Below, piece by piece: positions 34,081 to 64,000 of a DNA stretch of 64,000 nucleotides; position 1 is the first letter of the stretch; the number at the start of each line of letters is the position of its first letter. The notes under the pieces were generated by a model. It worked only from the letters and a program-made list of their open reading frames with translations. It was not told where the DNA came from and searched no databases. Both the position numbers and the translations under genes were made by a program. The DNA is taken from positions 1 through 64,000 of the forward strand of contig NZ_VKAC01000013.1 in NCBI RefSeq assembly GCF_008041935.1. The letters run 5' to 3'. This stretch comes from Quadrisphaera setariae. Lineage in GTDB: Bacteria > Actinomycetota > Actinomycetes > Actinomycetales > Quadrisphaeraceae.

Positions 34081-34114
34081 GCGGGACGATGTGCGGACGA
34101 GGGTGTGACCACCG

Positions 34115-49476: not shown

Positions 49477-51075
49477 ATGACCGACGCCGAGCCGACCACT
49501 GCCGTCCAGCGGTGGACCATCGGACGCACCCTCGGCGCCCTGCTGCTGACGATCGGTCTGGCCGTCGCGCTGCTCGTGACCGGGGCGGTGACCACCCAGC
49601 ACCGGCTGTCCGTCGCCAACGACAGGGTGGACCACACCCACCGGGTGCTGGAGGGCGTGGAGCACACCTCCGAGCTGCTCGCGACGGCCGAGTCGAGCCA
49701 GCGCGGCTTCATCATCACCGGCCGTGACCAGTACCTCACCGGCTTCTCCGCCGCCTCGGCGGAGGTCACCGAGGCCCTGGCGGGGCTGCGCACCCTGACG
49801 GCGGACAACGCTGACCAGCAGGGCCGGTTGGGTCAGCTCGAGCCCCTCGTGAGCGCCAAGCTCACCGAGATGCAGTCGACCATCGACGCGCGCCGGGGCG
49901 AGGGCGGCTTCGCCGCCGCCCAGGCCATCGTGCTCACCGACGCGGGCGCCGCCTCCGGCGAGCAGATCGCCCGGCTGCTGGGCGACGTCGCTGCCGAGGA
50001 GGAGTCGCTGCTGGCGGTGCGCGCCGAGCAGAGCGACAGGTCCGCCGTCCTCGCGGAGGCGCTGCAGATCGGTGGCGGCGCGGCGCTCCTCGCCCTCATG
50101 GCGGTCAGCGGCGCGGTGGTCATCCGCAAGGTCACGCGCCCGGTGCGCGAGGTCACCGCAGCGCTGGGGGCGCTCGCCGAGGGCGACCTCACCCGCACCG
50201 TCACCGTGCGGACCACCGACGAGACCGCGCTGATGGCCGCCTCGCTCAACCGCGCCACCGCCGCGCTGCGCACGAGCATGGCGCAGGTGCGCAGCTCGGC
50301 GCAGTCGCTCGCGACCGCCTCGGCCCAGCTCACCGCCACCTCGGAGGCCATCGCCGAGTCCGCGGAGGCCACCACCGGCCAGGCGGTCGAGCTCACCGAC
50401 AGCGCCTCCGGGGTGGCCCGCGAGGTGAGCAGCGTGTCCGCGGGCAGCGAGCAGATGGGCGCCTCCATCCTGGAGATCAGCACGAGCGCGCAGGACGCCG
50501 CCCGCGTGGCCGGAGAGGCCGTGGGGCTGGCGGCGTCCTCGTCGGCGGCGGTGGACCGCCTCGGCCGCTCCTCCGCCGAGATCGGTGCGGTGGTCAAGGT
50601 CATCACCTCCATCGCCGAGCAGACCAACCTCCTCGCCCTGAACGCGACCATCGAGGCGGCCCGCGCCGGTGAGGCCGGCAAGGGCTTCGCCGTGGTCGCC
50701 ACGGAGGTCAAGGAGCTGGCCCAGGGCACCGCCCGGGCCACCGAGGACATCGCCCGGCGCGTCGAGGCCATCCAGGGCGACACGAGCAGCGCCGTCGAGA
50801 CCATCACGCGCATCTCGGAGGTCATCGCCACCATCAGCGACTTCCAGACCACCATCGCCTCGGCGGTGGAGGAGCAGTCGGTGGTCACCCAGGAGATGAC
50901 GCGGGGAGCGGCGCAGGCCGCCGGTGGCACCGACGACATCGCCGCCACCACCCGGGCCGTGGCCGCCGGGGCGCGTAGCACCACCGCGAGCGTGAAGGAG
51001 TCGCAGGCGGCAGCGGTGGAGCTGGCGAGGATGTCGCGCGAGCTGGACGGGCTGGTCGCGGCCTTCCGGCTCTGA
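49477..51075 (+). CDS. Methyl-accepting chemotaxis protein (CHASE3-type sensor)
   Basis: 532 residues. Membrane helix 1 ([20 protein letters not shown]) is near residue 20 and helix 2 near 195-215. The outer domain has the CHASE3 signature [20 protein letters not shown] follows ([22 protein letters not shown]). The signalling tip reads [30 protein letters not shown]. It senses an unknown signal and controls CheA. ATG 49477 has AGGAG upstream. It is probably transcribed by FliA from 49396, the typical mode for receptor genes. Confidence 0.95.
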
Positions 51076-51128
51076 CAGCGGCCCCGCTGGACGGGCGGGG
51101 CAGCGCGCGGCCCGTCGGACCCGGCACC

Positions 51129-51134
51129 CAGACT
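51129..51134 (+). promoter_or_regulatory. -10 box CAGACT (leaderless) of the polymerase-like gene
   Basis: CAGACT, 6 bases, GTG 51141. Confidence 0.45.
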
Positions 51135-51140
51135 GTCGGG

Positions 51141-52841
51141 GTGTCGGGTCCGCGCCAGGTGCTGCTGCAGCGGCTGGCGCCCGATGTCGTCGTCGCCCAG
51201 CTCGGCGACGACGGCGACCGCGGCGAGGTGGTGCGGCTCCGCGAGGACGAGCTGCCGGCCTTCGTGGGTGGGCTCGAGGGGACGGGCGCCGGCTCGGGCC
51301 CGCGCTGGGTGTGGGACGACACCACCCGCTGGTACCCGCAGGTCCTCGCCGCGGGCGGCCGCGTGCGGCGGTGCACCGACCTGCGCCTCGTGCACCGGGT
51401 GCTGCGGCGCTCGCCGGTGGTCGACCAGGCGCTCCTGACCGGCCCGGACACGGCCGCGTGGGACGAGGCGCAGCCGCTGCTGCTCAGCGGGACCGCGCTG
51501 GGCGGCAGCGCACCGGCACCGGAGGGGCTCTTCGAGCTGCACCCGCCGGCCGGGCTCCTCGACGCCGCCGCGGAGCTCGCCCGGCAGGAGGCTGCGCTCG
51601 CGGCCTCCCCGGCGCGCGGCCACCTGCAGCTTCTCGCCGCCGCGGAGAGCGCTGCCGCCCTGGCCGCCGCGGAGATGACGCACGCCGGACTGCCGTGGCG
51701 CGCCGACGTCCACGACCGCCTCCTGGTGACCCACCTCGGCCCGCAGCCGGCGGCGGGGGAGGCGCCGGCGGCGCTGGCCGCGGCGCTCGCGCGGACGCGG
51801 CAGGCGCTCGACGCCCCGTCGCTGAACCCCGACAGCCCCGCTGACCTGCAGCGCGCCCTGCGGCGTGCGGGCCTGGAGCTGCCGGACACGCGCTCGGGCA
51901 CGCTGTCGCAGGTGGAGCACCCCGCGGTGGCTCCGCTGCTGGAGCACCGCAGGCTCTCGCGCCTGCACGCCGCCAACGGCTGGCGCTGGCTGCGCGAGTG
52001 GGTGCGCGAAGGCCGCTACCGCCCCGACCACCTGCCCGGCGGCGTGGTCAGCGGACGCTGGGCGGCGCAGGGAGGGGGAGCGCTGTCGGTCCCGGCGGTG
52101 CTGCGGCCGGCGGTGGTGGCCGACGACGGGTGGCGGCTCGTCGTGGCCGACGTCGCCCAGCTGGAGCCGCGCGTGCTGGCCGCGGTCAGCGGGGACGTCG
52201 ACCTGGCCCGCGCCGCGGCCGGCGGCGACCTGTACCAGGGCGTCGTGGACAGCGGCGCGGTCGCCACCCGGTCCGACGCCAAGCTCGCCGTGCTCGGCGC
52301 GATGTACGGGGCCACCGCCGGCAGCGGCGGCCGCATGGTCGAGCACCTCGCGCGCCGCTACCCGCGGGCGGTCGAGCACCTGGAGACCGCCGCGGCGGCG
52401 GGGGAGCGCGGCGAGGTGGTGCGCACGTGGCTGGGGCGCGGGTCGCCGCGGCCGAGCGGGTCCTGGACGCAGCAGGCCCCCGACGTGCCCGCCACGGACG
52501 CCGAGCTGCGCGAGCGCCGCTCGTGGGGGCGCTTCACGCGCAACTTCGTGGTGCAGGGCTCGGCGGCGGAGTGGGCCTCGAGCTGGGTGGCGCTGCTCCG
52601 CGAAGAGCTGTGGCGCCTCGGCGGTGCTGGTGCGGGTCGGGTGGAGCAGCGTCCGCACCTGGTGCTCTTCCTCCACGACGAGGTGCTTGTGCACACCCCG
52701 GCCGCCCTGGCCGACGAGGTCGTCGGCGCGGTGCGCACGGCTGCCGAGAGGGCGGGGCGGCTGTTGTACGGCGGCTTCCCCATCACGTTCCCCTTGGACG
52801 TGCACGTGTGCCGGTCCTGGGCCGACGCCGACGACGGCTGA
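51141..52841 (+). CDS. Polymerase-A-like bifunctional 3'-5' exonuclease/DNA polymerase
   Basis: 566 residues. The C-terminal half is family-A polymerase: motif A is VVADVAQLEPRVLAA (canonical DYSQIELR changed), the O-helix region is SDAKLAVLGAMYGAT, and motif C is VLFLHDEVLVHTP. The N-terminal part has an exonuclease-like fold with weak acidic motifs. Such shortened enzymes are a recognised actinobacterial group separate from PolA, probably for repair. The catalytic Asp of motif A (VVAD) and the Asp-Glu of motif C are present, so polymerase activity is plausible. The start follows CAGACT by 6 bases. Confidence 0.85.
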   Translation: MSGPRQVLLQRLAPDVVVAQLGDDGDRGEVVRLREDELPAFVGGLEGTGAGSGPRWVWDDTTRWYPQVLAAGGRVRRCTDLRLVHRVLRRSPVVDQALLTGPDTAAWDEAQPLLLSGTALGGSAPAPEGLFELHPPAGLLDAAAELARQEAALAASPARGHLQLLAAAESAAALAAAEMTHAGLPWRADVHDRLLVTHLGPQPAAGEAPAALAAALARTRQALDAPSLNPDSPADLQRALRRAGLELPDTRSGTLSQVEHPAVAPLLEHRRLSRLHAANGWRWLREWVREGRYRPDHLPGGVVSGRWAAQGGGALSVPAVLRPAVVADDGWRLVVADVAQLEPRVLAAVSGDVDLARAAAGGDLYQGVVDSGAVATRSDAKLAVLGAMYGATAGSGGRMVEHLARRYPRAVEHLETAAAAGERGEVVRTWLGRGSPRPSGSWTQQAPDVPATDAELRERRSWGRFTRNFVVQGSAAEWASSWVALLREELWRLGGAGAGRVEQRPHLVLFLHDEVLVHTPAALADEVVGAVRTAAERAGRLLYGGFPITFPLDVHVCRSWADADDG

Positions 52842-52873
52842 GGCTGGGTGAGCGCCCGCACCGCTCGCGGCGA

Positions 52874-53644
52874 TCAGCGGACGGACGCGCGCCGCAGCAG
52901 GGCGAGCTCACCGGCGCACGCCGCGGCCGTGACGAGCACGCCCAGCGCCGCGAGCCACCACAGCTGGAAGCCAGCCGCGAGGTCCCCCAGGTGCGGGGCG
53001 AGGAGCAGGGCGCTGGCCGCCAGCAGCGCGCCGCACCCCAGCCCCAGGAGCAGCGGCCCCCGCGCTCCGAACCTCACCCACGCCGCCGCGAACAGCGCCC
53101 CGAGCGACAGCAGGGTGAGGCTGCCGAGGAACAGCACCGAGACCAGCCGCAGCGGGTCACCGCCGCCCAGCACGACCACGTCGATGAGGTACAGCCCGAC
53201 GAACCACTGCCCGGTCAGCCGCTCCACTCCCAGCAGCGCCAGCCCGACGACGGCGACGTACGCCGCCAGCAGCCCGTGGAACGCCAGCGTGCCCGTGGTG
53301 AAGGCGCGCCGCCCGGTGCCGAGGGCCAGCGCCAGCGGGAAGGTGGTGGCCACCGACTGGACGCCGTAGTACCCCAGGAAGCCGGGCAGCGCCCACAGCA
53401 CGCCGGGGTTGTTGCGGCTGTTGCTGACCCACTCGGGAGTGCCCGGCCGCGAGCCCAGCTGGTAGAAGAACCCGGCGACCACCGCCGAGACGACGAGCAC
53501 CAGCCCGAGCGTCACGAGCGGCACCGCGAAGGTCATGAAGCGCTTGGTGGTCTGCAGGGCCACCACGTCGAGCGCGGAGACCGCGCGCACCGCGGTCGGG
53601 GTCTCCGCAGGCGCGTCGAGGTCGGGGGCTGCCGTGGTGGTCAT
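52874..53644 (-). CDS. ABC transporter permease (YtrC/D-like)
   Basis: 256 residues, six hydrophobic segments (first near residue 38, FMTFAVPLVTLGLVLVVSAVVAGFFYQ). It shows no catalytic motif. The ATG overlaps the stop of the ATP-binding gene (ATGA), so it is the membrane partner of that protein. The substrate is unknown; YtrA-linked ABC systems often respond to cell-wall antibiotics, which is an inference from context. Confidence 0.8.
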   Translation of the reverse strand: MTTTAAPDLDAPAETPTAVRAVSALDVVALQTTKRFMTFAVPLVTLGLVLVVSAVVAGFFYQLGSRPGTPEWVSNSRNNPGVLWALPGFLGYYGVQSVATTFPLALALGTGRRAFTTGTLAFHGLLAAYVAVVGLALLGVERLTGQWFVGLYLIDVVVLGGGDPLRLVSVLFLGSLTLLSLGALFAAAWVRFGARGPLLLGLGCGALLAASALLLAPHLGDLAAGFQLWWLAALGVLVTAAACAGELALLRRASVR

Positions 53645-54582
53645 GCGCGGGCTCCTGCCGTCTCGAGGGTCGGGTGTGCGGTGCGGTGGGCGGTGTCGTC
53701 GTCGTCCCGGTCGGCACCGTGGGCGGCGACCACGTCCTGGAGGCTCGCCTGCTCGACCTGCGCCCCCACCGCGCGGGCGGCTGCTGCTGCCTCCGGCGTG
53801 AGCGGTGCCTCGACGGTGGTGGAGCGCAGCCCGCCCAGCCGGCGGCTCGTGAGCACCGGCAGCCCCGCGGTGAGGCCGTCGACCACGACGGCGGGGCCGC
53901 TGACGGTGTACGCGGCGCTGCGCGCCTCGTCGAGGCTGCAGTCGCGCACCACGCGGCCGCCCTCGAGCACCACCACGTGGTCGAGCAGCGCCTCCATCTC
54001 GTCCACCAGGTGGGTGGAGACCAGCACCGTGCGCGGGTGCTCGGCGAGGTCGGCCACCAGCTGCGCGTAGAAGGTCCGCCGCGCGCTGGCGTCCAGGCCC
54101 AGGTACGGCTCGTCGAAGACCGTCAGCGGCGCCCGCGAGCACAGCCCCAGCACGATGCCCAACGCGGACAGCTGGCCGCGGGAGTACTTCTTGACGTCGG
54201 TGCGCGCCGGCAGCCGGAAGGCGTCGACCAGCTCGGCGGCGCGCTCGCGGTCCCACCGCGCGTGGAAGCGCGGGGCCACGGCCAGGAGGTGCCGCAGGCG
54301 GAAGTCGTCGGGGTAGCGCTGGTCGTCCCGGACCAGGCTCACCGCGCTGGTGGTGGGTGCGTGCGTGAACGGGTCTCGCCCGAACACCTCGACCCGTCCG
54401 CCCGTGGGCCGGTCGTGGCCGGCGGCCAGCGACATGAGCGTGGTCTTGCCGGCGCCGTTGCGCCCGAGCAGGCCGCAGACCGTGCCGTGCGGCACCTCCA
54501 GGCTGACGTCGCTCAGGGCTGCGGTCTGGCCGAAGGTCCGGCTGACGCCGTGGAGGCGGAGGGCTGGCTCGTCGGTGGTCAC
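53641..54582 (-). CDS. ABC transporter ATP-binding protein (YtrB-like)
   Basis: 313 residues. Walker A is GRNGAGKTT, the Q-loop region is VSLVRDDQRYPDDFRL, the signature is KYSRGQLSALGIVLGL, Walker B is LTVFDEPYLGLD, and the switch is VLVSTH. The sequence KKYSRGQ and the long C-terminal extension match the ATPases of GntR/YtrA operons. The GTG at 54582 overlaps the GntR stop, so regulator, ATPase and permease are co-translated in that order. Confidence 0.9.
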   Translation of the reverse strand: MTTDEPALRLHGVSRTFGQTAALSDVSLEVPHGTVCGLLGRNGAGKTTLMSLAAGHDRPTGGRVEVFGRDPFTHAPTTSAVSLVRDDQRYPDDFRLRHLLAVAPRFHARWDRERAAELVDAFRLPARTDVKKYSRGQLSALGIVLGLCSRAPLTVFDEPYLGLDASARRTFYAQLVADLAEHPRTVLVSTHLVDEMEALLDHVVVLEGGRVVRDCSLDEARSAAYTVSGPAVVVDGLTAGLPVLTSRRLGGLRSTTVEAPLTPEAAAAARAVGAQVEQASLQDVVAAHGADRDDDDTAHRTAHPTLETAGARA

Positions 54583-55022
54583 AGGGGACTCCTCTCACGG
54601 GTGGTGGCGGGCCCTCGCTGCTGGGGCGCTCCTGAGGACGGCGGGACCGGCGGCGCTGCGGCGGGCTGCGCGGCGCGCTCGGTGATGAGCCGCTGGACCT
54701 CGTCGAGGCCCAGGCCCAGCGCTCGGGCCTCGTCGAGCAGCGGTGCGACGAAGGCGTCGGAGAACCGGGCGGTGCGGTCGGCCAGGAGCGCTGCGCGCGC
54801 GCCCTCGCTGACGAACATCCCTAGCCCTCGGCGCTTGTGCAGCAGCCCCTTCTCCACCAGCAGGTTCACGCCCTTGCCGACGGTGGCGGGGTTGATGCGG
54901 TGGAACGCCGCGAGCTCGGTGGTGGAGGGCACCTGCGCGCCCTCGGGGTAGGCGCCGGCGGCGATGCCGGCGGCGATCTGGTCGGCGATCTGCTGGAAGA
55001 TCGGTCGCCCGTCGTCGATCAC
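54579..55022 (-). CDS. GntR-family regulator, YtrA subfamily
   Basis: 147 residues: an N-terminal winged HTH (IFQQIADQIAAGIAAGAYPEGAQVPSTTELAAFHRINPATVGKGVNLLVEKGL) and the short two-helix C-terminal tail of YtrA-type repressors. GTG 55022 is chosen because AAGGAGG is 5 bases upstream; ATG 55040 is possible but overlaps the operator dyad. It heads the operon with the ABC ATPase and permease and should repress it until an inducer, often a cell-envelope stressor, is present. Confidence 0.9.
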   Translation of the reverse strand: MIDDGRPIFQQIADQIAAGIAAGAYPEGAQVPSTTELAAFHRINPATVGKGVNLLVEKGLLHKRRGLGMFVSEGARAALLADRTARFSDAFVAPLLDEARALGLGLDEVQRLITERAAQPAAAPPVPPSSGAPQQRGPATTRERSPL

Positions 55023-55039
55023 GCCGCCTCCTTGGTTCA

Positions 55040-55078
55040 TTAGTCGAGTAACTAACCAGAGAACCGGTGGCGCGTCAA
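55040..55078 (-). promoter_or_regulatory. Promoter with YtrA-type operator dyad
   Basis: On the minus strand TTGACG (plus 55073-55078) and TAGTTA (plus 55049-55054) are 18 bases apart as -35 and -10. The inverted repeat TTAGT (55040-55044) and ACTAA (55051-55055) overlaps the -10, so bound GntR would block transcription of its own operon. Confidence 0.6.
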
Positions 55079-55279
55079 CGACCTTGGTGCGTCCCTCGCG
55101 GTCCTCACTGCCGCGACGCGCCGGAAGCCTGTCGCGAGGTGTCGGGACTCTGGCCCCGCTTCCGACATGGCGAGGCGGGGTTCCGGCATCTCGTGGCACC
55201 TCCTGTCCGCCCGGCCCGTTCCGCGCAGGGGGCGCAGCGCTGCGCCCCAGCAGCGCGACCCGGTGTCGGCGGTGGGGCC

Positions 55280-55285
55280 TACCGT
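55280..55285 (+). promoter_or_regulatory. -10 box TACCGT (leaderless)
   Basis: TACCGT, 7 bases, GTG 55293. It supports the short start for the methyltransferase. Confidence 0.6.
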
Positions 55286-55292
55286 CACCGCC

Positions 55293-55937
55293 GTGCGCCA
55301 GCCCGACGACCTCGCCGACGTCCGCGCCTCCTACGACCGCGTCGCCGACGCCTACGTGGCCATGGGCGCCGGCCTGCTCGGACCCGAGCCGTGGCTGCGC
55401 GCGGCGCTCGCCGCCTTCACCGAGCACGTGGCCCCGCTGGGACCGGTGCTCGACGTCGGGTGCGGCCCCGGGACCACCACCGCGCACCTGGCGAGCCTCG
55501 GTGTCGACGTCCGGGGCGTCGACCTCTCGTCGGGCATGGTCGGGCACGCGCGCCGGCTGCACCCGGGCCTGTCCTTCGAGGTCGCCTCGGCCACCGACCT
55601 GCGCCTCGCGGACGCCTCCCTCGGCGGTGCGCTGGGGTGGTGGTCGCTGGTCAACCTTCCGCGCGACGTGCTCGCCGCCGTCGTCGCCGACCTCGCCCGC
55701 GCCCTCGTGACCGGCGGCCAGCTGCTCCTGGGCGCCCACGTCGGGGACGAGGACGTGCCCCGCACCAGCGCGTACGGCGTCGACGGGGTGCGCTGGACCA
55801 CGCACCGGTGGCTGCCGGACGCGCTGGTCGACGTCGTCGTGAGCGCCGGGCTGGAGCTGGTCACCGAGCTGCGCTTCCCCGCCCGGGGCTCCCAGCCGCC
55901 GCAGGTGCTGCTGTGCGCGCAGCGGCCGCAGCGGTGA
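55293..55937 (+). CDS. Class I SAM-dependent methyltransferase
   Basis: 214 residues. The SAM motif VLDVGCGPGTTTAHLASLG is at about residues 50-68, then VRGVDLSSGMVGHARRLHP and the LGWWSLVNLPRDVL motif, as in methyltransferase_11/25 enzymes. It starts at GTG 55293, 7 bases after TACCGT, which rules out the longer frame from 55167. The substrate is unknown. The cyclase-like gene follows 33 bases later with its own -10 box. Confidence 0.88.
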   Translation: MRQPDDLADVRASYDRVADAYVAMGAGLLGPEPWLRAALAAFTEHVAPLGPVLDVGCGPGTTTAHLASLGVDVRGVDLSSGMVGHARRLHPGLSFEVASATDLRLADASLGGALGWWSLVNLPRDVLAAVVADLARALVTGGQLLLGAHVGDEDVPRTSAYGVDGVRWTTHRWLPDALVDVVVSAGLELVTELRFPARGSQPPQVLLCAQRPQR

Positions 55938-55957
55938 GCGGTGTCGGTGGCCGGGTC

Positions 55958-55963
55958 TAGCGT
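55958..55963 (+). promoter_or_regulatory. -10 box TAGCGT (leaderless)
   Basis: TAGCGT, 7 bases, GTG 55971. Confidence 0.6.
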
Positions 55964-55970
55964 CCCGGAC

Positions 55971-56972
55971 GTGACCGACGACGAGGTCCTCACGTGGCTG
56001 CTCGACTCCGACCCCGCGCTGCGCTGGCAGGTCCAGCGCGACCTGGCCGGTGAGCCGGCCGACGTGTGGGAGGCCACCCGGGAGCGCACGGCCACCGAGG
56101 GGTTCGGCTCGCGGCTGCTGGCCCTCCAGGACCACGACGGCCAGTGGGCGGGCGGCGCCTACTTCCCCCGGGAGGTCCGCGAGGGGACGTTCCCCGAGGA
56201 GCCCGGCCAGCCGTACACCGCCACCACGTGGTCGCTCAACCAGCTGCGGGGGTGGGGCGTGCCCGCCGCCGCGCTGCGGCCCCGCACCGCCGAGCTGCTG
56301 GCCGAGGTGCGCTGGGAGTACGAGGACCTGCCGTACTGGGGCGGTGAGGTCGACGTCTGCATCAACGCCTTCACCCTCGCCAACGGCGCGTGGCTCGGGG
56401 CCGACGTCTCCGCCGTCGAGGCGTGGTTCCCCGCCCACCAGCTCGAGGACGGCGGGTGGAACTGCGAGTGGGTGGAGGGCTCCACGCGCAGCTCCTTCCA
56501 CTCCACGCTCAACGCGGTGGTCGGCCTGCTCGACCACGAGCAGCGCACCGGAGGATCCGACGTGCTGCGGGCGGCGCGCCACCGCGGTGAGGAGTACCTG
56601 CTGCAGCGCCACCTCCTGCGGCGGTTCAGCACCGGCGAGCCCCACGGACCGTGGGCCACGCACTTCGCCTACCCGTTCCGGTGGACGTACAGCGCCCTGC
56701 GAGCCGCCGACCACGTCCGCGCGGCGTCCCTGCACGACGGGCGCGCGCCCGACCCGCGGCTGGTCGAGGCCGTGGCCCTGGTCCGCGGCGCCCGCGAGGA
56801 GGACGGCACGTGGCACCAGCAGCTGCGTCACGAGGGCCGGGTCTGGTTCGACGTCGACGGCGGGGTGGGTGAGCCGTCGCGGTGGCTGACGTTCCACGCG
56901 CTGAGGCTGCTGCGCTGGTGGGACGGGGCGGGGGCGACGGACGTCCGGCTGGGGGATGACGCGCCGCACTGA
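55971..56972 (+). CDS. Terpenoid-cyclase-like alpha/alpha-toroid protein of unknown role
   Basis: 333 residues. It carries repeats of the squalene-cyclase/prenyltransferase alpha-alpha barrel type (LLALQDHDGQWAGGAYF, AHQLEDGGWNCEWVEG, EEDGTWHQQLRHEG), each a QxxDGxW-like QW element. No DxDD protonation motif is seen, so it is probably not an active terpene cyclase. Such proteins are common in actinobacteria without a named function. The start is set by TAGCGT 7 bases upstream. Its TGA lies in a TGATCA palindrome. Confidence 0.75.
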   Translation: MTDDEVLTWLLDSDPALRWQVQRDLAGEPADVWEATRERTATEGFGSRLLALQDHDGQWAGGAYFPREVREGTFPEEPGQPYTATTWSLNQLRGWGVPAAALRPRTAELLAEVRWEYEDLPYWGGEVDVCINAFTLANGAWLGADVSAVEAWFPAHQLEDGGWNCEWVEGSTRSSFHSTLNAVVGLLDHEQRTGGSDVLRAARHRGEEYLLQRHLLRRFSTGEPHGPWATHFAYPFRWTYSALRAADHVRAASLHDGRAPDPRLVEAVALVRGAREEDGTWHQQLRHEGRVWFDVDGGVGEPSRWLTFHALRLLRWWDGAGATDVRLGDDAPH

Positions 56973-56984
56973 TCACTGCGGCGA
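56963..56984. repeat. TGATCA-core palindrome at the end of the cyclase-like gene
   Basis: CGCCGCA and TGCGGCG flank CTGATCAC. The TGA of the preceding gene (56970-56972) is part of the core. The right arm abuts the -10 region (GACCAT, 56983-56988) of the AAA gene. Confidence 0.6.
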
Positions 56985-56994
56985 CCATGGCGCG

Positions 56995-58593
56995 GTGACC
57001 GACACCGGACGTCCGCACGCTGGATCGCCAGTCCCCACCGACGCCCTGGGCAGCGGCGAGGGCCGCGACGAGCGGCTGGCGCTGGCACGCGCCGTCACCG
57101 GGCTGCTCGACTGGGCGCAGGAGACCACCGCGCAGCGGGTCCCAGCGCTGGTGACCCGCCTGCGCGAGCACCTCGGGGAGGGAGCTGCTGACGCCACCGT
57201 CGTCAGTCGCGAGTTCGCGGTGTTCGACAGGGTCAACCTCCAGCTGGCCCTCGAGGCGTGGGCCGCGGAACCGGGTCGCTCGGTGGAGGTGGTCGGCTAC
57301 ACCATCCCGCCGCACTTCGGCACCGTCGACGTCGCGCAGATGCTGCAGGGCACGCACCTGCCGCCGCTGCGCGTCACCTCACCGCCGGTCGACGACCTGC
57401 CCTCCGGCCCGACCAGCACCACCGCCGTGTGGCGGGCGGTGCTCCTGCTCGTCACCGACCCGCGAGGTCGGCACGCGCTGCACGTCCGCGGCCCCGCCGA
57501 CCAGCACGGGCACAGCGGGCTGACCGTGGAGGCCGCTGGCCTCGAGACCGCGGCGGCCCAGGAGCTGCTCGGCGAGCTCGAGGCGCTGCGCTCGGCGAAG
57601 AACGTCTACCGCGGCCAGGTGCTGGAGATCAGCGCCAACGACCACGGCGGCGTCGCCCTGCGCTTCCCCGACCTGCCCCGCACCGACCGCGACGACGTCG
57701 TGCTGCCCGAGGCCGTGCTCGCCCGCGTGGAGCGGCACACCCTCGCCGTCGCCGCCCGCCGCGAGGTGCTGCGCGCCAGCGGCCAGCACCTCAAGCGGGG
57801 CCTGCTGCTCTACGGCCCGCCCGGCACCGGCAAGACCCACACCACCCGGTACGTCGTCACGCACCTGCCCCAGACCACCGCGCTGCTGCTGTCGGGCCGC
57901 TCGCTGCACCTCATCGGCGCCGTCGCGGCGATGGCGCGCGAGCTGCAGCCCGCCGTCGTCGTCCTCGAAGACGTCGACCTGGTCGCCGAGGACCGCTCCT
58001 TCGGCCACGGGATGAACCCGGTCCTGTTCGAGCTGCTCGACGCCATGGACGGCGCCGCCGCCGACGCCGACCTGCTCTTCCTGCTCACCACCAACCGCGC
58101 CGAGGCCCTCGAGCGGGCGCTCGCGGCGCGCCCCGGACGGGTGGACGTGGCGCTGGAGATCGGCCTGCCGGACGCTGATGCGCGCCGCCGGCTCCTCCGG
58201 CTGTACTCGCGGGCGGTACCGCTGACCGCCAGCGACGAGGTGGTCGAGGAGGTCGTGGCGCGCAGCGAGGGCGTGACCGCGTCGTTCGTCAAGGAGCTCG
58301 TGCGCCGCGCGGTGCTGGAGGCGGCGATGGCTCAGGACGACGGTGCGAGCAGTGCCGGCGAGGCCGTCCGCGAGGTGACCGGGGAGCACCTGCGGCACGC
58401 GCTCGACGACCTGCTCGACTCCACGCAGGCGCTGACGCGCGCCCTGCTGGGCGTGCCCGCCGACCAAGGCGCCGACAGGGGTGACGACGAGGTCGTGAGC
58501 TACGAGGGGAGCTACGAGCCGGGCGTCCAGGTGGTCCAGACCGCTGAGCAGTACCGGTCCGGTGGCGGCTGGTTCCGCCACAGCCCGCGCTGA
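56995..58593 (+). CDS. AAA-family ATPase with unknown N-terminal domain
   Basis: 532 residues. The first 250 residues are of unknown fold. The AAA core follows: Walker A GPPGTGKT near residue 285, Walker B VVVLEDVDLV near 325, sensor-like LLFLLTTNRAEALERAL, and the arginine-finger region AARPGRVDVALEIGLPD. This resembles BCS1/CDC48-like ATPases that remodel proteins. The partner is unknown. The GTG at 56995 follows GACCAT by 6 bases. A strong TGATCA hairpin follows the gene. Confidence 0.85.
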   Translation: MTDTGRPHAGSPVPTDALGSGEGRDERLALARAVTGLLDWAQETTAQRVPALVTRLREHLGEGAADATVVSREFAVFDRVNLQLALEAWAAEPGRSVEVVGYTIPPHFGTVDVAQMLQGTHLPPLRVTSPPVDDLPSGPTSTTAVWRAVLLLVTDPRGRHALHVRGPADQHGHSGLTVEAAGLETAAAQELLGELEALRSAKNVYRGQVLEISANDHGGVALRFPDLPRTDRDDVVLPEAVLARVERHTLAVAARREVLRASGQHLKRGLLLYGPPGTGKTHTTRYVVTHLPQTTALLLSGRSLHLIGAVAAMARELQPAVVVLEDVDLVAEDRSFGHGMNPVLFELLDAMDGAAADADLLFLLTTNRAEALERALAARPGRVDVALEIGLPDADARRRLLRLYSRAVPLTASDEVVEEVVARSEGVTASFVKELVRRAVLEAAMAQDDGASSAGEAVREVTGEHLRHALDDLLDSTQALTRALLGVPADQGADRGDDEVVSYEGSYEPGVQVVQTAEQYRSGGGWFRHSPR

Positions 58594-58600
58594 CCCTGTT

Positions 58601-58648
58601 GTGATCATGGGCGTTGTGCGCAGGAGTGTGCACAACGCCCATGATCAC
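58601..58648. repeat. Perfect 19-bp-arm hairpin, TGATCA-core family
   Basis: 58601-58619 and 58630-58648 are perfect reverse complements (arm GTGATCATGGGCGTTGTGC) with a 10-base loop. It lies between the convergent AAA ATPase and old yellow enzyme genes, so it probably terminates both. Confidence 0.88.
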
Positions 58649-58664
58649 GGCCGGGTCCTTCGCC

Positions 58665-59768
58665 TCAGAGAGCGAGTCGCGGGTAGTCGGTGTAGCCCTT
58701 CGCGCCGTCGCTGTAGAACGTCGAGGCGTCGGGCTCGTTCTCGTCGGCACCCACGCGCCAGCGCTCGGCGAGGTCGGGGTTGGCGATGGCCGGGCGGCCC
58801 ACGGCCACGGCGTCGGCGACCCCGTCGGCCACCAGCTGCTGAGCCAGCTCGCGCGTGCTCGGCGCGGCGAAGCCGTTGTTGGCCACGAGCGGGGCGCCGA
58901 CGCGGCGGCGCAGGTCCTGGACGAGGTGGCCGCCGAGGTCGGCGTGCAGCACGGAAAGGTACGCCAGGTCGAGGTCGGCGATGCCGGTGGCGAGCGCCGC
59001 GTAGGTGGCGGCGACGTCGTCGGCGTCCTTCTCCCAGGCGTCCTGGATGTTGTGGGCGGGGCTGATGCGCAGCCCGGTGCGGCCGGCGCCGACGGCCTCG
59101 GCCACGGCGCGGACCGTCTCCACCACGAAGCGCGCGCGGGCCTCCGGTGAGCCGCCGTAGAGGTCGGTGCGGAGGTTGGCGGCGGGGGAGAGGAACTCGT
59201 GGAGCAGGTAGCCGTTGGCCCCGTGCACCTCCACGCCGTCCAGTCCGGCGGCCACGGCGCGCTTCGCGCCGGCGACGAACTGCTCGCGGACCTCCTCGAG
59301 CTCGTCGAGGGTGAGGGCGTGCGGGGTCTCGTACGGCTCCTTGCCGCGGGGCGTGCGCACCTCGCCGTCGATGGCGACGGCGCTGGGCGCCACGGTGCGG
59401 GTGCTGCCGGTGACGCCGGTGTGCGTGACCCGCCCCGCGTGCATGACCTGCATGACGATCGTGCCGCCGGCGTCGTGGACGGCCTCGGCGACGCGGCCCC
59501 AGGCGTCCTGCTGCTCGTCGGTGGTGATGCCCGGCTGGCCGACCCAGCCCTGCCCCTCCTCGACGGGGTAGGTGCCCTCGGTGACGAGCAGGCCGAGACC
59601 TGCTCGCTGCGCGTACATCTCGGCCACGAGCTCACCGGGCACGCCGCGCTCCCCGGAGCGCAGGCGCGTCAGGGGTGCCATGACGATGCGGTTGGAGAGC
59701 TTGAGGTCGCCGAACACGGCGGGGGTGAAGAGGTCCACGGAGGGTGCCAACGGCGCGGGCAGCGCCAC
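58665..59768 (-). CDS. Old yellow enzyme-family alkene reductase (NemA-like)
   Basis: 367 residues, an FMN barrel. Family motifs are LSNRIVMAPLTRLRS, a substrate-binding pair in VEVHGANGYLLHEFLSP, and late GRPAIANPDLAERW. It should reduce activated C=C bonds or nitro compounds with NAD(P)H. GTG 59768 is preferred: it is 8 bases after GAAACT, while the TTG at 59777 is weak. A MarR/OhrR-type gene lies just upstream in the same direction, so electrophile or peroxide stress control is likely. Confidence 0.9.
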   Translation of the reverse strand: MALPAPLAPSVDLFTPAVFGDLKLSNRIVMAPLTRLRSGERGVPGELVAEMYAQRAGLGLLVTEGTYPVEEGQGWVGQPGITTDEQQDAWGRVAEAVHDAGGTIVMQVMHAGRVTHTGVTGSTRTVAPSAVAIDGEVRTPRGKEPYETPHALTLDELEEVREQFVAGAKRAVAAGLDGVEVHGANGYLLHEFLSPAANLRTDLYGGSPEARARFVVETVRAVAEAVGAGRTGLRISPAHNIQDAWEKDADDVAATYAALATGIADLDLAYLSVLHADLGGHLVQDLRRRVGAPLVANNGFAAPSTRELAQQLVADGVADAVAVGRPAIANPDLAERWRVGADENEPDASTFYSDGAKGYTDYPRLAL

Positions 59769-59789
59769 CTGTTCCAAGTTTCAACGACA

Positions 59790-59803
59790 GTGGCGAGCGC
59801 CAC
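59790..59803 (-). promoter_or_regulatory. Short palindrome GTGGCG-AG-CGCCAC upstream of the alkene reductase gene
   Basis: Perfect 6-bp arms in the 47-base gap between the OhrR-like gene and the reductase gene. It could be the end hairpin of the regulator gene or an operator for the reductase promoter. Confidence 0.4.
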
Positions 59804-59815
59804 AGATCGCCGTCG

Positions 59816-60301
59816 TCACGTTTGACGCGGCTCTCCCGGGGGAGGGACGGCCACCGTCGCGGCGGCGATGACCGACGTGAGCGAGTCGCGCAGGGCCACG
59901 AGGTCGCCGACGTCCATCCCCAGCCGCGCCATCACCGCGCGCGGCACGGCCAGCGCCTGCTCGCGCAGCGCCGCCCCCCGCTCCGTCAGCTCGACGACGA
60001 CGACGCGCTCGTCGCGGTCGTCGCGGGCCTTGGTGACCAGGCCCGTGCTCACCAGGCGCTTGAGCAGCGGTGACAGCGTGCCCGAGTCGAGCTGGAGCAG
60101 GCCGCCGATCTCCTTGACGCTCAGGCGGCGGTGCTGCCAGAGCGCCAGCATCACGAGGTACTGCGGGTGCGTCAGGCCCAGCGGCTCGAGCACCGGCCGG
60201 TACAGCGCGATGACGCTGCGCGCCGCGACGGCCAGGGCGAAGCAGACCTGCTGGTCGAGCGCCAGGAGGTCGGGCTCGGCGTCGTGCGTGGCGGCGGTCA
60301 C
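59816..60301 (-). CDS. MarR-family regulator, OhrR-like with conserved N-terminal Cys
   Basis: 161 residues. The opening LLALDQQVCFALAVAARSV matches the OhrR pattern in which the Cys (here near residue 16) is oxidised by organic peroxides. The winged HTH covers about 45-110 (TVKEIGGLLQLDSGTLSPLLKRL type). It should release DNA on oxidation. The GTG at 60301 is 7 bases after a minus-strand TACGCT (plus 60309-60314). No ohr gene is next to it; the old yellow enzyme gene downstream is the obvious target. Confidence 0.88.
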   Translation of the reverse strand: MTAATHDAEPDLLALDQQVCFALAVAARSVIALYRPVLEPLGLTHPQYLVMLALWQHRRLSVKEIGGLLQLDSGTLSPLLKRLVSTGLVTKARDDRDERVVVVELTERGAALREQALAVPRAVMARLGMDVGDLVALRDSLTSVIAAATVAVPPPGEPRQT

Positions 60302-60308
60302 GGCTGAC

Positions 60309-60350
60309 AGCGTAGCGTCTCGTGGCGTACCATTCGATTGCACACAACCG
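60309..60350 (-). promoter_or_regulatory. OhrR-like promoter and operator region
   Basis: Minus-strand -10 box TACGCT (60309-60314), 7 bases before the GTG. Upstream at 60335-60350, CGATTG-CACA-CAACCG is a dyad with one mismatch in a locally AT-rich stretch, a candidate self-operator that also precedes the divergent small gene. Confidence 0.5.
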
Positions 60351-60373
60351 ATGATGTCGAGGGGCGAGCTGAC

Positions 60374-60616
60374 GTGTCGTTCATGCGCAGGGTGTTCGGC
60401 AGGCTCGACCGCGCCGTGGGGTCGGTCGAGCAGAACCTCAAGGCCGTCTACGGCGGCGCCCAGGTGGACGAGCAGCAGGCCGGCACGCAGGCCGCCCGCG
60501 CCGAGCACCGCCTCTCCGGCGTGCAGGGCCAGTACGAGATGCACAAGGACGCCACCGGGCGCACCTACCTCGTCTCGAAGCCCCCCGCACGCGACGACGC
60601 GCGCGACGAGGGCTAG
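60374..60616 (+). CDS. Small conserved-looking hypothetical protein
   Basis: 80 residues, hydrophilic, predicted mostly helical (FMRRVFGRLDRAVGSVEQNL and QAARAEHRLSGVQGQYEMHK), no membrane segment. GTG 60374 follows a GAGGGG site by 8 bases; ATG 60383 is an alternative. It is divergent from the OhrR-like gene and may share its operator. The function is unknown. Confidence 0.6.
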   Translation: MSFMRRVFGRLDRAVGSVEQNLKAVYGGAQVDEQQAGTQAARAEHRLSGVQGQYEMHKDATGRTYLVSKPPARDDARDEG

Positions 60617-60622
60617 CAGCGC

Positions 60623-60922
60623 TCAGGGGGTGTCCGGCACCTCGAACTGCACCCGGACGATCTGCTCGCACAGCGGTGCGAAGAGCTCCCGGCGGATGCG
60701 GTCGTGCTCCTCGTCGAGGTCGTAGGCGCGGTAGCTGGCCTCGTCCGCCCAGTCGTTGGTGATGGCGAAGTCCCACGGCTGCTCGCGCAGCCGCAGGTCC
60801 GTGCCGACCCGGCACGCCAGGCGGCCGGGGGACTCGAGGGCGGCGATGGCGTCGAGCCCGGGCCGCACCGTCGCCAGGGCCACGCCGTCGAGGAGCTTGC
60901 CGACCACCACGTTGCGGATCAC
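60623..60922 (-). CDS. Dabb-family stress-responsive alpha/beta barrel protein
   Basis: 99 residues. The ferredoxin-like Dabb pattern is visible: IRNVVVGKLLDG, a central CRVGTDLRLREQPWDFAITNDWADEASYRAY and the ending HDRIRRELFAPLCEQIVRVQFE. These proteins dimerise; many are of unknown function. The GTG at 60922 is 6 bases after GAAGAT. It converges with the small hypothetical gene, 6 bases apart. Confidence 0.85.
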   Translation of the reverse strand: MIRNVVVGKLLDGVALATVRPGLDAIAALESPGRLACRVGTDLRLREQPWDFAITNDWADEASYRAYDLDEEHDRIRRELFAPLCEQIVRVQFEVPDTP

Positions 60923-60948
60923 CCGCCCATCTTCCGCCGTCAGCGCCA

Positions 60949-61899
60949 TCAGGCGCAGGCGACCCCGTCGCCGTCGCGGTCCAGGCGCGGGTTCCACCCC
61001 GGGTCTCCGCTGTGCAGCGGTGTGGCCCCGGCGGCCTTCGCGGCCGAGCAGCTGGCGTAGGGCGCGGTCGACGTCGCTGCGCCTGAGGGCTCGCCGCTCG
61101 GTGCGCCGGACGGTGCTGCGCCGGAGGGGGCCGGCTGGGGGCCCACCCCGCCGTCGTCGCGGGGCAGGCGCTGGTCGGGGCAGGTGTCCAGCACGTCGGA
61201 CATGGCGTCGTGCTCGGCCTGCGTGACCCAGGCGCCGTACTTGGTCTTCACGGCGATCTGCCGCGCGACGTACTGGCAGCGGAAGCCCTTGTTCGGCGGC
61301 AGCCACGTGGCGGCGTCGCCGTCTCCCTTCGCCGAGTTCAGGGGGCCGTCCACGGCGAGGAGGTTCAGCGGGTCGTTGGCGAACTGCTCGCGCTCGTCGG
61401 CGGACCACTGCTGCGCGCCGGTCTGCCACGCGTCCGACAGCGCCACGAGGTGGTCGATCTGCACCTCGGAGCTGCGCGGGCCCCGCTGGAAGCGGATCTC
61501 CTTGGGCGTGTACGGGTCCACGAGCACTCCGCTGGCGACCTGGCAGGGGTCGTCGCGGCTGAAGACGACGTCGGTCATGTCCCGGGCCAGCACGTCGTCG
61601 CGGGTGTCGCAGCCGTTGGCGTCGACGTCGTGCCAGGCCTGCCCGAACTGCTCGCGCGAGTACCCGGTCTTGGGGGCCTTGCCCTTCACGGGCAGGCGCT
61701 CCAGCGCGGCCGCCGCCGTGCCGGCGGGGGCCTGCTGCGTGCTGCCCTGGCCGGAGCCGAGCAGCTCTCCGAGCCCGCCGAGGCCGCCGACGGAGCGGGC
61801 GAGGAGCACGAGGAGCACGAGGAGCACGACCACCGCGACGACGACGCCGACGCGTGACCGCACGGGAGCGGATGCCCCCCGGGGGGAAGTCCGGGACAC
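60949..61899 (-). CDS. Secreted/membrane-anchored HNH-type nuclease with Excalibur domain
   Basis: 316 residues. One N-terminal membrane helix (VGVVVAVVVLLVLLVLLARSV) anchors it. The DUF1524/HNH-like domain covers about 65-235 (RSSEVQIDHLVALSDAWQTGA, FANDPLNLLAVDGPLNSAKGD), with the catalytic-type DH in IDHLVALSD. The C terminus is an Excalibur calcium-binding motif, LDRDGDGVAC. This combination is common in actinobacterial extracellular nucleases, probably for DNA nutrition or defence. The GTG at 61899 is the first in-frame start. Confidence 0.88.
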   Translation of the reverse strand: MSRTSPRGASAPVRSRVGVVVAVVVLLVLLVLLARSVGGLGGLGELLGSGQGSTQQAPAGTAAAALERLPVKGKAPKTGYSREQFGQAWHDVDANGCDTRDDVLARDMTDVVFSRDDPCQVASGVLVDPYTPKEIRFQRGPRSSEVQIDHLVALSDAWQTGAQQWSADEREQFANDPLNLLAVDGPLNSAKGDGDAATWLPPNKGFRCQYVARQIAVKTKYGAWVTQAEHDAMSDVLDTCPDQRLPRDDGGVGPQPAPSGAAPSGAPSGEPSGAATSTAPYASCSAAKAAGATPLHSGDPGWNPRLDRDGDGVACA

Positions 61900-62011
61900 G
61901 AGGGCGAGCCTGTCACGTCCACACCACCCGGCGCAGGGCCACCACAGGTGCCTGTGGACAGGCGCTGTCGCGGACGTCGTCCTCCTCTCTGTGGGTGTGG
62001 CGCTGTCCCTC

Positions 62012-62042
62012 TTGAACGAAGCGTTGTATTAATGCTACGAAT
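62012..62042 (+). promoter_or_regulatory. Promoter of the XRE/membrane-protein pair
   Basis: TTGAAC (62012-62017), 18 bases, TACGAA (62036-62041), 7 bases before the XRE start at 62049. The region is AT-rich (TTGTATTAATGCTACGAATAG), unlike its surroundings, and probably contains the XRE operator. Confidence 0.55.
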
Positions 62043-62048
62043 AGAGGC

Positions 62049-62318
62049 ATGGGAAGGACGCCGCGCAGCAGTGAAGATGCGGTGCACGACCGCATCGCCG
62101 TGCTGCGGGCCGAGCGGCGCACCAGCCGCAAGGAGCTCGCCGAGGCCGTCGGCGTGCACCCGCAGACCATCGGGTACCTCGAGCGCGGCGAGTACAGCCC
62201 CTCGCTGGCCCTCGCCCTGCGCATCGCCCGGTACTTCGACCTCCCCGTCGAGGCCGTGTTCAGCCTCGACCCCCTGCCCCCGCTCAGCTCCGAGCTCTAC
62301 GGAAGGACAGCCCGATGA
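62049..62318 (+). CDS. Small XRE-family regulator
   Basis: 89 residues, single HTH: RIAVLRAERRTSRKELAEAVGVHPQTIGYLERGEYSPSLALALRIARYFDLPVEAVF, the YozG/Cro-like pattern of regulators paired with membrane proteins. The ATG at 62049 is 7 bases after a -10 box. Its stop overlaps the ATG of the membrane gene. It presumably controls its own two-gene operon. Confidence 0.9.
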   Translation: MGRTPRSSEDAVHDRIAVLRAERRTSRKELAEAVGVHPQTIGYLERGEYSPSLALALRIARYFDLPVEAVFSLDPLPPLSSELYGRTAR

Positions 62319-62812
62319 ACGCCACGACCCGCTCCCGCACCACCGGCCTGGCCGCCACCTTCGAGGACGAGCGGTACGCCTGGGCGCGCCGCCGCGCGGT
62401 GCGCCGCAGGGCGGTGTCCGTGGAGGCCGCCCTGGTGGGCTTCCTCGTGGGCGTGCCGCTGGTCTCGACGATGAGCGCACTGAGCGGCCTCGTGCCCGTG
62501 GTCCTGTGGGTGGCTGCGTGCCTCGCCTTCATCCCCGTCCACTCCGTGGTGAACCTCGGCGTCCGCGGCGTCTTCGACCGCCGCGAGGCGACGCTCGACG
62601 AGGTGCAGCGGTCGATGCGTGACACCGCCGCGGCGGCCGTCACCCGCTACCGCGACGTGCTCGGGCTGCTGGCCTTCGTGGCTGCGGCGCTCGTCACCTG
62701 GCGCGGGGGTGGGATGGGGTCCGGTCTCGCCGTCGGCTTCGCGCTCTGGTTCACGAGCGGGCTGCTGTCCACCTGGTACCTGGCCTGGACCCTCCCCGAC
62801 GAGGAGGACTGA
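62315..62812 (+). CDS. Four-helix membrane protein paired with XRE regulator
   Basis: 165 residues. The N terminus is a charged helix (FEDERYAWARRRAVRRRAV), followed by four hydrophobic segments (about 33-55, 56-75, 110-130, 133-155). The ATG overlaps the XRE stop (ATGA). Proteins of this plan are common next to small XRE regulators and have no named function. Confidence 0.8.
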   Translation: MNATTRSRTTGLAATFEDERYAWARRRAVRRRAVSVEAALVGFLVGVPLVSTMSALSGLVPVVLWVAACLAFIPVHSVVNLGVRGVFDRREATLDEVQRSMRDTAAAAVTRYRDVLGLLAFVAAALVTWRGGGMGSGLAVGFALWFTSGLLSTWYLAWTLPDEED

Positions 62813-62813
62813 A

Positions 62814-62844
62814 CTCCACCCCTCTCGCGATCACGGTCGGGTGG
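62814..62844. repeat. TGATCA-related palindrome between convergent genes
   Basis: CTCCACCC and GGGTGGAG flank CTCTCGCGATCACGGTC. The stop of the kinase-acetyltransferase gene (TCA, 62831-62833) is the right part of GCGATCACGG. Confidence 0.65.
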
Positions 62845-63916
62845 AGAGGACGACGACCGGCTGGCCGGCCCAGACGTCCTCCTCCTCGACCACCAGGCCG
62901 AGTCGCCGCGCCACCGCGAGCGAGCGCCTGTTCGTCGCGGTGACGTAGCAGGCCACGCGCTCCAGCCCGATCCCCGGCGCCGCCTCCAGCCACGCCCGGC
63001 CCGCCTCCGTGGCGTACCCGTGGCCCCAGGCGTGACGGGCCAGCCGCCACCCCACCTCCACCGCCTCCGGACGGCGGCGGTGCCGGCCGAACCCGCAGAA
63101 GCCGAGGAACGCGCCGTCGTCCGTGCGCTCCACGGCCGCGAGGCCGAACCCGTGCACCTCGAAGCACGCGTCGGCGTACCGGGCCAGTCCGTCGGAGGCG
63201 GCGCGGTCCATCGGTCCGGAGCTGAAGTGCTCCATGACCTCGGGGTCGGCGTTCATCGCGGCGAACGGCTCCAGGTCCGCCTCGCGCCAGCGGCGCAGCA
63301 CCAGCCGCTCGGTCTCGAGCACCACCTCGGGCTCGCCGCGCACGGCCCACGCACCGAACCGGTGGTGAGGCGCCAGCAGCGACGCCGGGACCGCCACCTG
63401 TTCGGGGTGGGCGTCCACGCGGGCGCGCAGCTCGACCACCGCGCGGGCCAGCGCCGTCGTCGCGGTGTCGACGACGACGGCGGCGGGCTCGTCGGCGTCG
63501 CGCCGCCAGGCGGGCCGACCGGTGACGCCCTCCCAGGTGGGGACGACCTGCCCGGGCAGGTCGGCGGTGCGCTCTCGCACCCGGCGCTCGTGCAGTTCCG
63601 GGTCGGAGCAGACGACGTCGACCTCGAGCAGCGGCACCCCGACCTCGCTCGCGAGGGCGCGCCACCCGTCTCGCGCCTCGCGCACGGGGTTGACCGCGTC
63701 GACCACGGCGTGGCGGCCGCTCTGCAACGCGTCACCGGCCACCACGTGGGCGAGGCGGTAGCCCGTGGGGTCACCGTCACGAGCCGAGGTCGCACGCAGG
63801 CCGAGTGCGGTCTCGAACGCGTCGACGCGCACGTGCGGCGCACCGAGGGAGCGGGCCAGCTCCCGGGCGAGCGTCGTCTTGCCGACTCCGGGCAGGCCGC
63901 TGAGCACCACGAGCAC
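62831..63916 (-). CDS. Fusion of P-loop kinase and GNAT acetyltransferase
   Basis: 361 residues. The N-terminal half (about 1-165) is a small-molecule kinase-like domain with Walker A SGLPGVGKTT and a DVVCSDPELHERRVRERTADLPG lid segment. The C-terminal half (about 180-360) is a RimJ/RimL-type GNAT domain: VLETERLVLRRWREADLEPF, then EVGWRLARHAWGHGYATEA and VACYVTATNRRSLAVARRLG. The fusion suggests two consecutive modifications of one substrate, which is unknown. GTG 63916 (6 bases after GAGAGT) is preferred because the ATG at 63940 lies inside a repeat hairpin. Confidence 0.82.
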   Translation of the reverse strand: MLVVLSGLPGVGKTTLARELARSLGAPHVRVDAFETALGLRATSARDGDPTGYRLAHVVAGDALQSGRHAVVDAVNPVREARDGWRALASEVGVPLLEVDVVCSDPELHERRVRERTADLPGQVVPTWEGVTGRPAWRRDADEPAAVVVDTATTALARAVVELRARVDAHPEQVAVPASLLAPHHRFGAWAVRGEPEVVLETERLVLRRWREADLEPFAAMNADPEVMEHFSSGPMDRAASDGLARYADACFEVHGFGLAAVERTDDGAFLGFCGFGRHRRRPEAVEVGWRLARHAWGHGYATEAGRAWLEAAPGIGLERVACYVTATNRRSLAVARRLGLVVEEEDVWAGQPVVVLSTRP

Positions 63917-63930
63917 GCTCCCACTCTCCA

Positions 63931-63982
63931 CCGTGATCATGGGCTTCCGGAACGCGCCTGTTCCGGAAGCCCATGATCACGG
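63931..63982. repeat. Perfect 22-bp-arm hairpin, TGATCA-core family
   Basis: 63931-63952 and 63961-63982 are perfect reverse complements (the arm starts CCGTGATCATGGG and ends CTTCCGGAA) with an 8-base loop. It lies upstream of the kinase-acetyltransferase gene. Confidence 0.9.
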
Positions 63983-64000
63983 ACGGTCGGGTGGGTCAGG

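Follow-up and report, generated by a model that had tools for sequence, protein, structure and literature searches.

REPINs have inverted conserved ends around a variable middle, fold into hairpins and lie outside genes in many copies, and they occur together with singlets and evenly spaced tandem arrays of their repeats (PMC3116915; Bertels and Rainey, 2011); all of these traits are likewise found in the TGATCA family described in this study. Short palindromic repeats with a CGTC tag have been reported without a dedicated transposase (PMC3733652). With regard to transcript ends, U-less (I-shaped) and HS-U-lack stems have been found among the 3′ ends mapped in Streptomyces clavuligerus, and in that Term-seq work U-tract terminators represent a minority of the mapped ends (PMC8269248). 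The preference of stem-loops for convergent spacers is described as general in bacteria (PMC1590033).

A stretch of 64,000 nucleotides (the window, C13:1-64000 of a genome of 4.91 Mb; G+C content 75%) was analysed in this study, in which the original prediction had recognised a dispersed family of hairpins with a fixed TGATCA core. That observation is real and was confirmed in part. Judging from sequence, we slightly favour the reading that these elements are genus-amplified, REPIN-like repeats that act as two-way, U-less hairpins at the 3′ ends of transcripts. Transcript ending in very GC-rich actinobacteria is poorly resolved, and the TGATCA family offers candidate bidirectional 3′-end hairpins that can be recognised with ease across the genome.

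Hairpins, direct arrays and core abundance

The three hairpins predicted at 136-185, 58601-58648 and 63931-63982 are present, with perfect stems of 20, 19 and 23 bp, respectively, and none of them is assigned to a strand. In the first (z −9.7), the palindromic cores (145-156 and 165-176) lie on the loop side of the 20-bp perfect arms and the arms outside. The inverted core pair at 63931-63982 has a 6-nt loop (z −11.5). The inverted core pair at 58592-58657 comprises a left core with two mismatches (58599-58610, TTGTGATCATGG) and a second core at 58639-58650, 40 bp apart, and its 19 perfect base pairs are part of a longer stem (RNA minimum free energy −57.4 kcal/mol, z −11). It is located between the convergent genes 56995-58593 (+) and 58665-59738 (−), toward both stop codons of which the stem extends, and it has orthologues in three of the five same-genus genomes compared with the genome under study, here G000 (G001, G002 and G004 of G001-G005).

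The sites predicted as shorter or tandem forms at 16351-16423 and 16842-16884 are indeed tandem, but they are direct arrays rather than inverted hairpins. The array at 16349-16423 (+ strand) consists of three cores (16349, 16381 and 16412; spacing 32 and 31 bp) at the end of the gene 15419-16354, the stop codon of which is the TGA of the first core, and reads CCGTGATCATGG in the sense of that gene. The array at 16842-16884 (− strand; two cores, spacing 31 bp) has the opposite orientation, and the two arrays flank a small open reading frame (ORF; 16420-16794). Three further sites had been listed. The first, 23985-23996, is a single, near-palindromic core with one mismatch that forms a short hairpin (no strand; z −2.9) at the convergent junction between the called genes 23442-23990 (+) and 23991-25463 (−), and the orthologous junction of G004 is without TGATCA. 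The site at 56963-56984 (CACTGATCACTG) contains TGATCA but not the CC..GG core and folds weakly (z −1.7), and that at 62814-62844 is a degenerate single core without TGATCA (CGCGATCACGG; no strand) with a weak fold (z −1.5) at a convergent junction. Its orthologous junction has a full TGATCA hairpin in G001 and no TGATCA in G004.

The core is strongly over-represented. In the window, 21 core matches (≤1 mismatch) were counted against 0.90 ± 1.19 in 100 shuffles, and TGATCA itself occurs 14 times against 2.9 expected. Genome-wide (4.9 Mb), CCGTGATCAYGG gives 146 strand-matches (a palindromic copy scores once per strand) and the reversed pattern gives none, so the core is far more common than chance allows. 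Five same-genus genomes contain 127-270 matches each, whereas 53 genomes from other genera of the family and order contain at most 14; the amplification is thus limited to the genus. This genus is probably Quadrisphaera, as a scan of named genomes with an exact 16-mer of the unit (best 80 of 117 matches) recovered three contigs of Quadrisphaera granulorum, among which one carries an inverted pair; the remaining matches among those listed are single occurrences. No Rfam family matches the 64-kb window at the gathering score. Another motif, TGATCAWGGAGTTGTSG, was tried and set aside, with five matches in four of 394 class genomes; two of the matches (G078) lie in related inverted repeats.

Position at gene ends and turnover at orthologous junctions

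Gene positions were obtained with a home-made caller in an 864-kb sample of the genome, which combines the window with 40 further stretches (800 kb), 20 contiguous and unselected and 20 picked for cores. Of the 121 cores (≤1 mismatch) in this sample, convergent spacers contain 47, co-directional spacers 53 and divergent spacers 8; the other 13 belong to a "gene" class that includes stretch edges. With 400 kb of the 864 kb selected for cores, the densities per kb are 2.88, 1.18, 0.29 and, in genes, 0.017; the 464 unselected kb contain 9, 23, 0 and 6 cores, respectively, three of the last at stretch edges. The cores in genes (at most 13 per 771 kb) are at about shuffle level (0.90 per 64 kb).

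Of 775 called genes, 67 have a core at the stop codon or up to 60 nt past it, and 19 have one in the 60 nt that precede the start. Taking CCGTGATCATGG in the sense of the gene, the first core at the gene end is sense in 44 cases, anti in 14 and symmetric in 9, an orientation bias (44:14) that is in part automatic for inverted pairs. In 18 called genes of the sample the stop codon is the TGA within the core (13 sense, 1 anti and 4 symmetric), which shows that the core sits tight on the gene end. Genes of this kind (at 16352-16354 of the window and 17 others) often have a Pro/Ser-rich tail before the stop, encoded by the C-rich flank.

Among convergent junctions, strong inverted repeats (score ≥12) occur at 81% of the 21 that have a core and at 48% of the 66 that lack one; the corresponding values are 46% of 26 and 15% of 288 for co-directional junctions, and 0 of 3 and 5% of 113 for divergent junctions. 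Base-shuffled controls (simple shuffles, three each) gave none. With such repeats at core-less junctions as well, the TGATCA family is one of several gene-end hairpin families. A scan of 50000-64000 for terminators with a T run returned nothing at 58601 or 63931, neither of which has the stem-loop plus T run of a canonical intrinsic terminator.

Conservation in place was observed for most syntenic core junctions of G000, with a core also present in the relative at 12 of 13 junctions shared with G004 and at 6 of 8 shared with G003; four syntenic junctions have a core in G004 only. At 30 convergent junctions syntenic between G000 and G004, a strong hairpin is present in both genomes at 15, in one at 4 and in neither at 11, and the 17 junctions shared with G003 divide into 8, 3 and 6. 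At C1:212109, the TGATCA hairpin of G004 has a GGACCGCAGCC-type counterpart in both G000 and G003; this is the one junction with a clear family swap. The stems at C1:38886 and C1:142018 are without TGATCA, and their sequences are unlike between G000 and G003. Hairpins that are kept or swapped in this way are expected if a junction needs a hairpin rather than a particular sequence. C1:321113 was considered as a second swap and rejected, because the ends of the G000 stem resemble a decayed core.

Other hairpin families were noticed at gene ends. A second dispersed family (GGACCGCAGCCGGGCGCCCGGCTGCGGTCC and variants) occurs at 44407-44436 of the window and at C1:212109, C1:295833 and C1:326891 (L036, L040 and L042), and at one orthologous junction it takes the place of the TGATCA family. 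A third (CGCACTTTCCGCGGCAAGTGCG / CGCACTTTCCGCGGAAAGTGCG) is found at C1:70273, C1:142018 and C3:190001-210000 (L059), with about 20 occurrences of its top 12-mers against 0.01 expected, and a fourth, around GTGACGCCGGACGTGCAGAAGTCCG (34010-34183 of the window), forms long inverted repeats of 36-38 nt. A hairpin of G003 (C1:134557) combines TGATCA ends with TGCAGAAG.

The ORF bracketed by cores at 16349-16884 varies between species: in G003 the junction contains one core and lacks the ORF, in G004 a similar ORF (small and membrane-type, as in G000) is bracketed, and in G001 the cores enclose a different gene, located on the opposite strand. A second bracket, C6a:17296/18386, is retained in G001, G004 and G005 and is replaced in G003 by another gene without cores; the contig of G002 stops before its second side. 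In this second case (L050, C6:190001-210000, positions 17296-18460), the gene lies between −−− and +++ core arrays, the arms of which have changed on both sides in G001, G004 and G005, and it adjoins a gene that we take to be purL-like. The names LysR, hisD, AbiEi-like and SnoaL-like are likewise presumed from the look of the proteins, and Pfam assigned no family to the AbiEi-like protein or to the small ORF 16420-16794. A general rule of core-bracketed cassettes was rejected, since gene adjacency is kept at 13 of 17 core junctions against 219 of 293 others in G004, and at 8 of 17 against 163 of 293 in G003.

Anatomy, copying and pairing of the repeat unit

The 91 units aligned as CCATGATCACG(G) consist of an arm of about 13 nt, the core and a G-rich tract, with no U-tract; a G located 11 nt upstream of the core is conserved in 87%. 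Four arrangements of units occur: inverted pairs that enclose the arms (most of them 39-50 bp apart), inverted pairs whose cores lie in the middle (spacing 9 or 20), direct arrays spaced by 31 or 32 bp, and singles. In the 864-kb sample, 41 of 67 neighbour-core distances are 31-32 bp (36 and 5, respectively), and the others are 9, 20-21 and 39-43, with two longer ones.

The prevailing form of the core is asymmetric and contains potential G-U pairs (76 units against 11 symmetric, 10 + 1). As CCGUGAUCAUGG can pair with itself through two G-U pairs, and its complement CCAUGAUCACGG would give two A-C mismatches, the 13 direct arrays fold better as RNA on the strand that allows G-U pairs (mean z −3.0) than on its complement (−1.2; p 0.001). 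Direct and inverted arrangements can thus yield the same kind of RNA hairpin. The sense of the array agrees with the nearest stop codon in 8 of 13 cases and opposes it in 3 (16842, C6a:18386 and C3b:6935); the other 2 have no stop nearby. A large symmetric array (−−−/+++; L048, C7:57287-57557) lies in a divergent spacer with no called gene between its halves. Nested arm pairing within multi-unit symmetric arrays was dropped as an idea (8.85 against 8.35 of 13 positions, taken as no difference).

The 31-32 bp spacing and the near-fixed core exceed the needs of a hairpin. G-U folding leaves the constant spacing unexplained, and it is this constancy that speaks most for a bound protein: the core could be the site of a dimeric DNA-binding protein (of the nucleoid or roadblock type) which, instead of RNA folding, would insulate convergent genes, and arrays at three helical turns would place several dimers on one face. 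The near symmetry of the 12-bp core and the occurrence of unpaired cores, single or in direct arrays, fit this explanation, as do cases such as C1:303165, where cores and spacing are kept in three species and the arms have turned over. However, we regard it as unlikely, given that inverted pairs lie at 39-46 and 49-50 bp, off the helical steps, that protein sites would make the covariation of the arms (below) needless, and that the common core is the asymmetric rather than the symmetric form. Strict helical phasing was dropped for the inverted pairs and retained for direct arrays only.

Capped hairpins number 21-59 per genus genome. G002 has two identical 62-bp hairpins, oppositely oriented and separated by 29 kb. 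They match from CCG to CGG, where the two cores end on the outside, and no further, which points to the capped hairpin as the copied unit, whether it was transposed or spread by conversion by way of the cores. Inspection by eye revealed no direct target-site duplication at these copies, and orthologous sites are mostly both filled. The RAYT-like transposase suggested by the original prediction was searched for as the Y1/RAYT family PF01797 and was not found in any of the six genus genomes, whereas 5 of 14 controls gave matches. This precise copy, the genus-limited amplification and the recurrence of arm types would also suit purely selfish, RAYT-less REPINs or MITEs that survive where they are harmless, after stop codons, and whose pairing serves their own copying. 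Such elements would not be expected to persist at the same syntenic junctions (12 of 13 with G004, 6 of 8 with G003) or to be swapped for another hairpin family at one junction. PF01797 gave no match in the six genus genomes, and phage carriage was rejected, as the viral contigs contain no match to the capped hairpin. Selfish spread as the whole explanation seems improbable to us.

Pairing of the arms was assessed in 49 of 59 hairpins of G002 (9 absent from the listing, 1 too short) and 14 of 21 of G000 (7 too short). Watson-Crick pairs occupy 90% of arm positions in the 49 G002 hairpins, and double changes that keep pairing far exceed those obtained with shuffled partners (109 cells against a mean of 29 and a maximum of 54 in G002; 44 against 16 and 29 in G000). 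At the orthologues of 58592-58657, four species have four different stems, GCGTTGTGCGCA (G000), GCGTCGTGCGCA (G004), GCAGTCGGCCACC (G002) and GCGGTTGGCCACC (G001), each matched by its opposite arm, in some cases with a single G-T or A-C step. Across 24 orthologous unit pairs, identity is 93% in the core, 63% in the arm and 87.7% in the flanking genes, with the units located through their cores (≤2 mismatches), which favours core identity. Among stem mismatches, G-U is no more frequent than A-C (16 and 22 in G002; 11 and 14 in G000), so that the inverted stems by themselves do not favour RNA over DNA.

The proposal that either selection for the hairpin or a symmetry-keeping copying mechanism acts on the family is supported in both halves, by covariation well above shuffles and compensatory change at orthologues and by the precise hairpin copy, and neither half excludes the other. 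The claim that a shared core is joined to paired, locus-specific arms holds for the pairing and was overstated for the specificity, as arms belong to recurring types (23 distinct left arms among the 49 G002 hairpins, the commonest in 18 of 49). In many of the additional copies, which are singles or belong to direct arrays, the arms are not paired, which partly bears out the caution that arms might be unpaired at most other copies.

Symmetry could also be kept without selection on the hairpin by quasi-palindrome correction through template switching at the fork. Arms drift and yet agree best when the inverted pair is close: the 28 one-to-one pairs (two of them 708 bp apart) match at 11.2 of 13 positions, against 8.1 in 52 tandem neighbours and 5.8-8.8 for random unit pairs within one species; in G004 alone, tandem neighbours reach 10.3 (n = 13), close to the 11.4 of inverted pairs. 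Correction leaves the fixed core, the 3′-end position and the conservation of hairpins at syntenic convergent junctions unexplained, and as a sufficient cause it appears quite improbable.

Interpretation and comparison with known systems

According to the favoured reading as 3′-end hairpins, the repeated piece would be the 12-bp quasi-palindrome CCGTGATCATGG with its arm of about 13 bp. Two pieces placed head to head, 39-50 bp apart, would form a long hairpin that can be read from both strands and thus suits convergent genes, and pieces in direct arrays, 31-32 bp apart, would also fold in RNA owing to the two G-U pairs of CCGUGAUCAUGG. The hairpin might end the mRNA through termination without a U-tract (I-shaped, or as the end of Rho-dependent transcripts) or by blocking 3′ exonucleases; pairing may be maintained by selection, by hairpin-templated correction or by both, and new copies would form when the capped unit is copied as a whole. 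Both the role in termination or 3′ protection and the route of copying are proposed here from the arrangement of the repeats. The family contains natural variants, with arms changed and the core kept and with direct or inverted arrays.

Capped hairpins are not confined to the genus. Of 246 class genomes, that under study included, 31 contain the pattern TGATCAWGG-N8..38-CCWTGATCA (four or more copies in 11, one to three in 20), and 1 contains its reversed control. Among the matches listed, three genomes of one genus (G151, G211 and G221) have a spacing of 31 bp, rarely 30, with GGCGTTYGCAG-like arms, and G176, G186 and their kin in another family have 46-50 bp and other arms. G221 also contains direct repeats at 30 bp. 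In stretches picked around such hairpins, those of other lineages lie mainly in convergent and co-directional spacers. Ten hairpin-rich genomes from other families were scanned for PF01797, which was detected in one, G281; among the nine without a match, two are clearly incomplete (68% and 78%). G281 has two Y1 transposase genes (C1:1819737 and 2123557; L300 and L301). The similar caps may reflect either common descent or convergence. We put forward only tentatively, as a rather doubtful generalisation, that actinomycetes share a RAYT-independent spread and upkeep of TGATCA-capped gene-end hairpins, in which one core, recognised by a putative enzyme or RNA/DNA-binding protein, would be kept across families, arms would be lineage-specific and direct arrays would act as sense-RNA hairpins through G-U pairs.

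The family had been described as unlike any known REP or terminator family. This holds for its sequence, and among the open-access articles matched and listed none describes a TGATCA-capped family in its title or the start of its abstract; in position (3′ ends and convergent junctions) and architecture, however, the elements do resemble REPIN-type repeats and U-less terminators. DNA uptake sequences such as the Neisseria DUS and Haemophilus USS share with the TGATCA family a genus-specific, over-represented core and inverted pairs next to genes, and in some species (H. influenzae, P. multocida) are mostly intergenic as well (PMC1590033), but an uptake function is very improbable here, as 146 strand-matches per 4.9 Mb rank near the bottom of the range of hundreds to thousands given in the cited text (PMC2346458), in-gene cores show no excess over chance and the core is near-palindromic.

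The CGTC repeats (PMC3733652) provide a precedent for palindromic repeats reported without a dedicated transposase. They differ from the TGATCA family, whose core is fully paired and in whose 91-unit profile CGTC occurs in some arms only, inside the stem. With its extragenic, multicopy, hairpin-forming inverted doublets of a conserved repeat, the family has the defining structure of a REPIN. It differs from REPINs in that no PF01797 match accompanies it in the six genus genomes, that its core is itself a near-palindrome and that the 91-unit profile contains no consensus GTAG, the tag of REP and REPIN sequences; since neither a RAYT nor this tag was found, we do not file it as a REPIN. A REPIN-like population in which no RAYT was found makes it testable what else can copy such repeats. 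Compared with the U-less terminators of S. clavuligerus, among which the cited text describes no repeated family with a fixed core (PMC8269248), the TGATCA hairpins are candidates recognised from sequence. Like those terminators, they are stable GC-rich stems without a U-tract, located at the 3′ ends of genes in a high-GC actinobacterium (PMC8269248).
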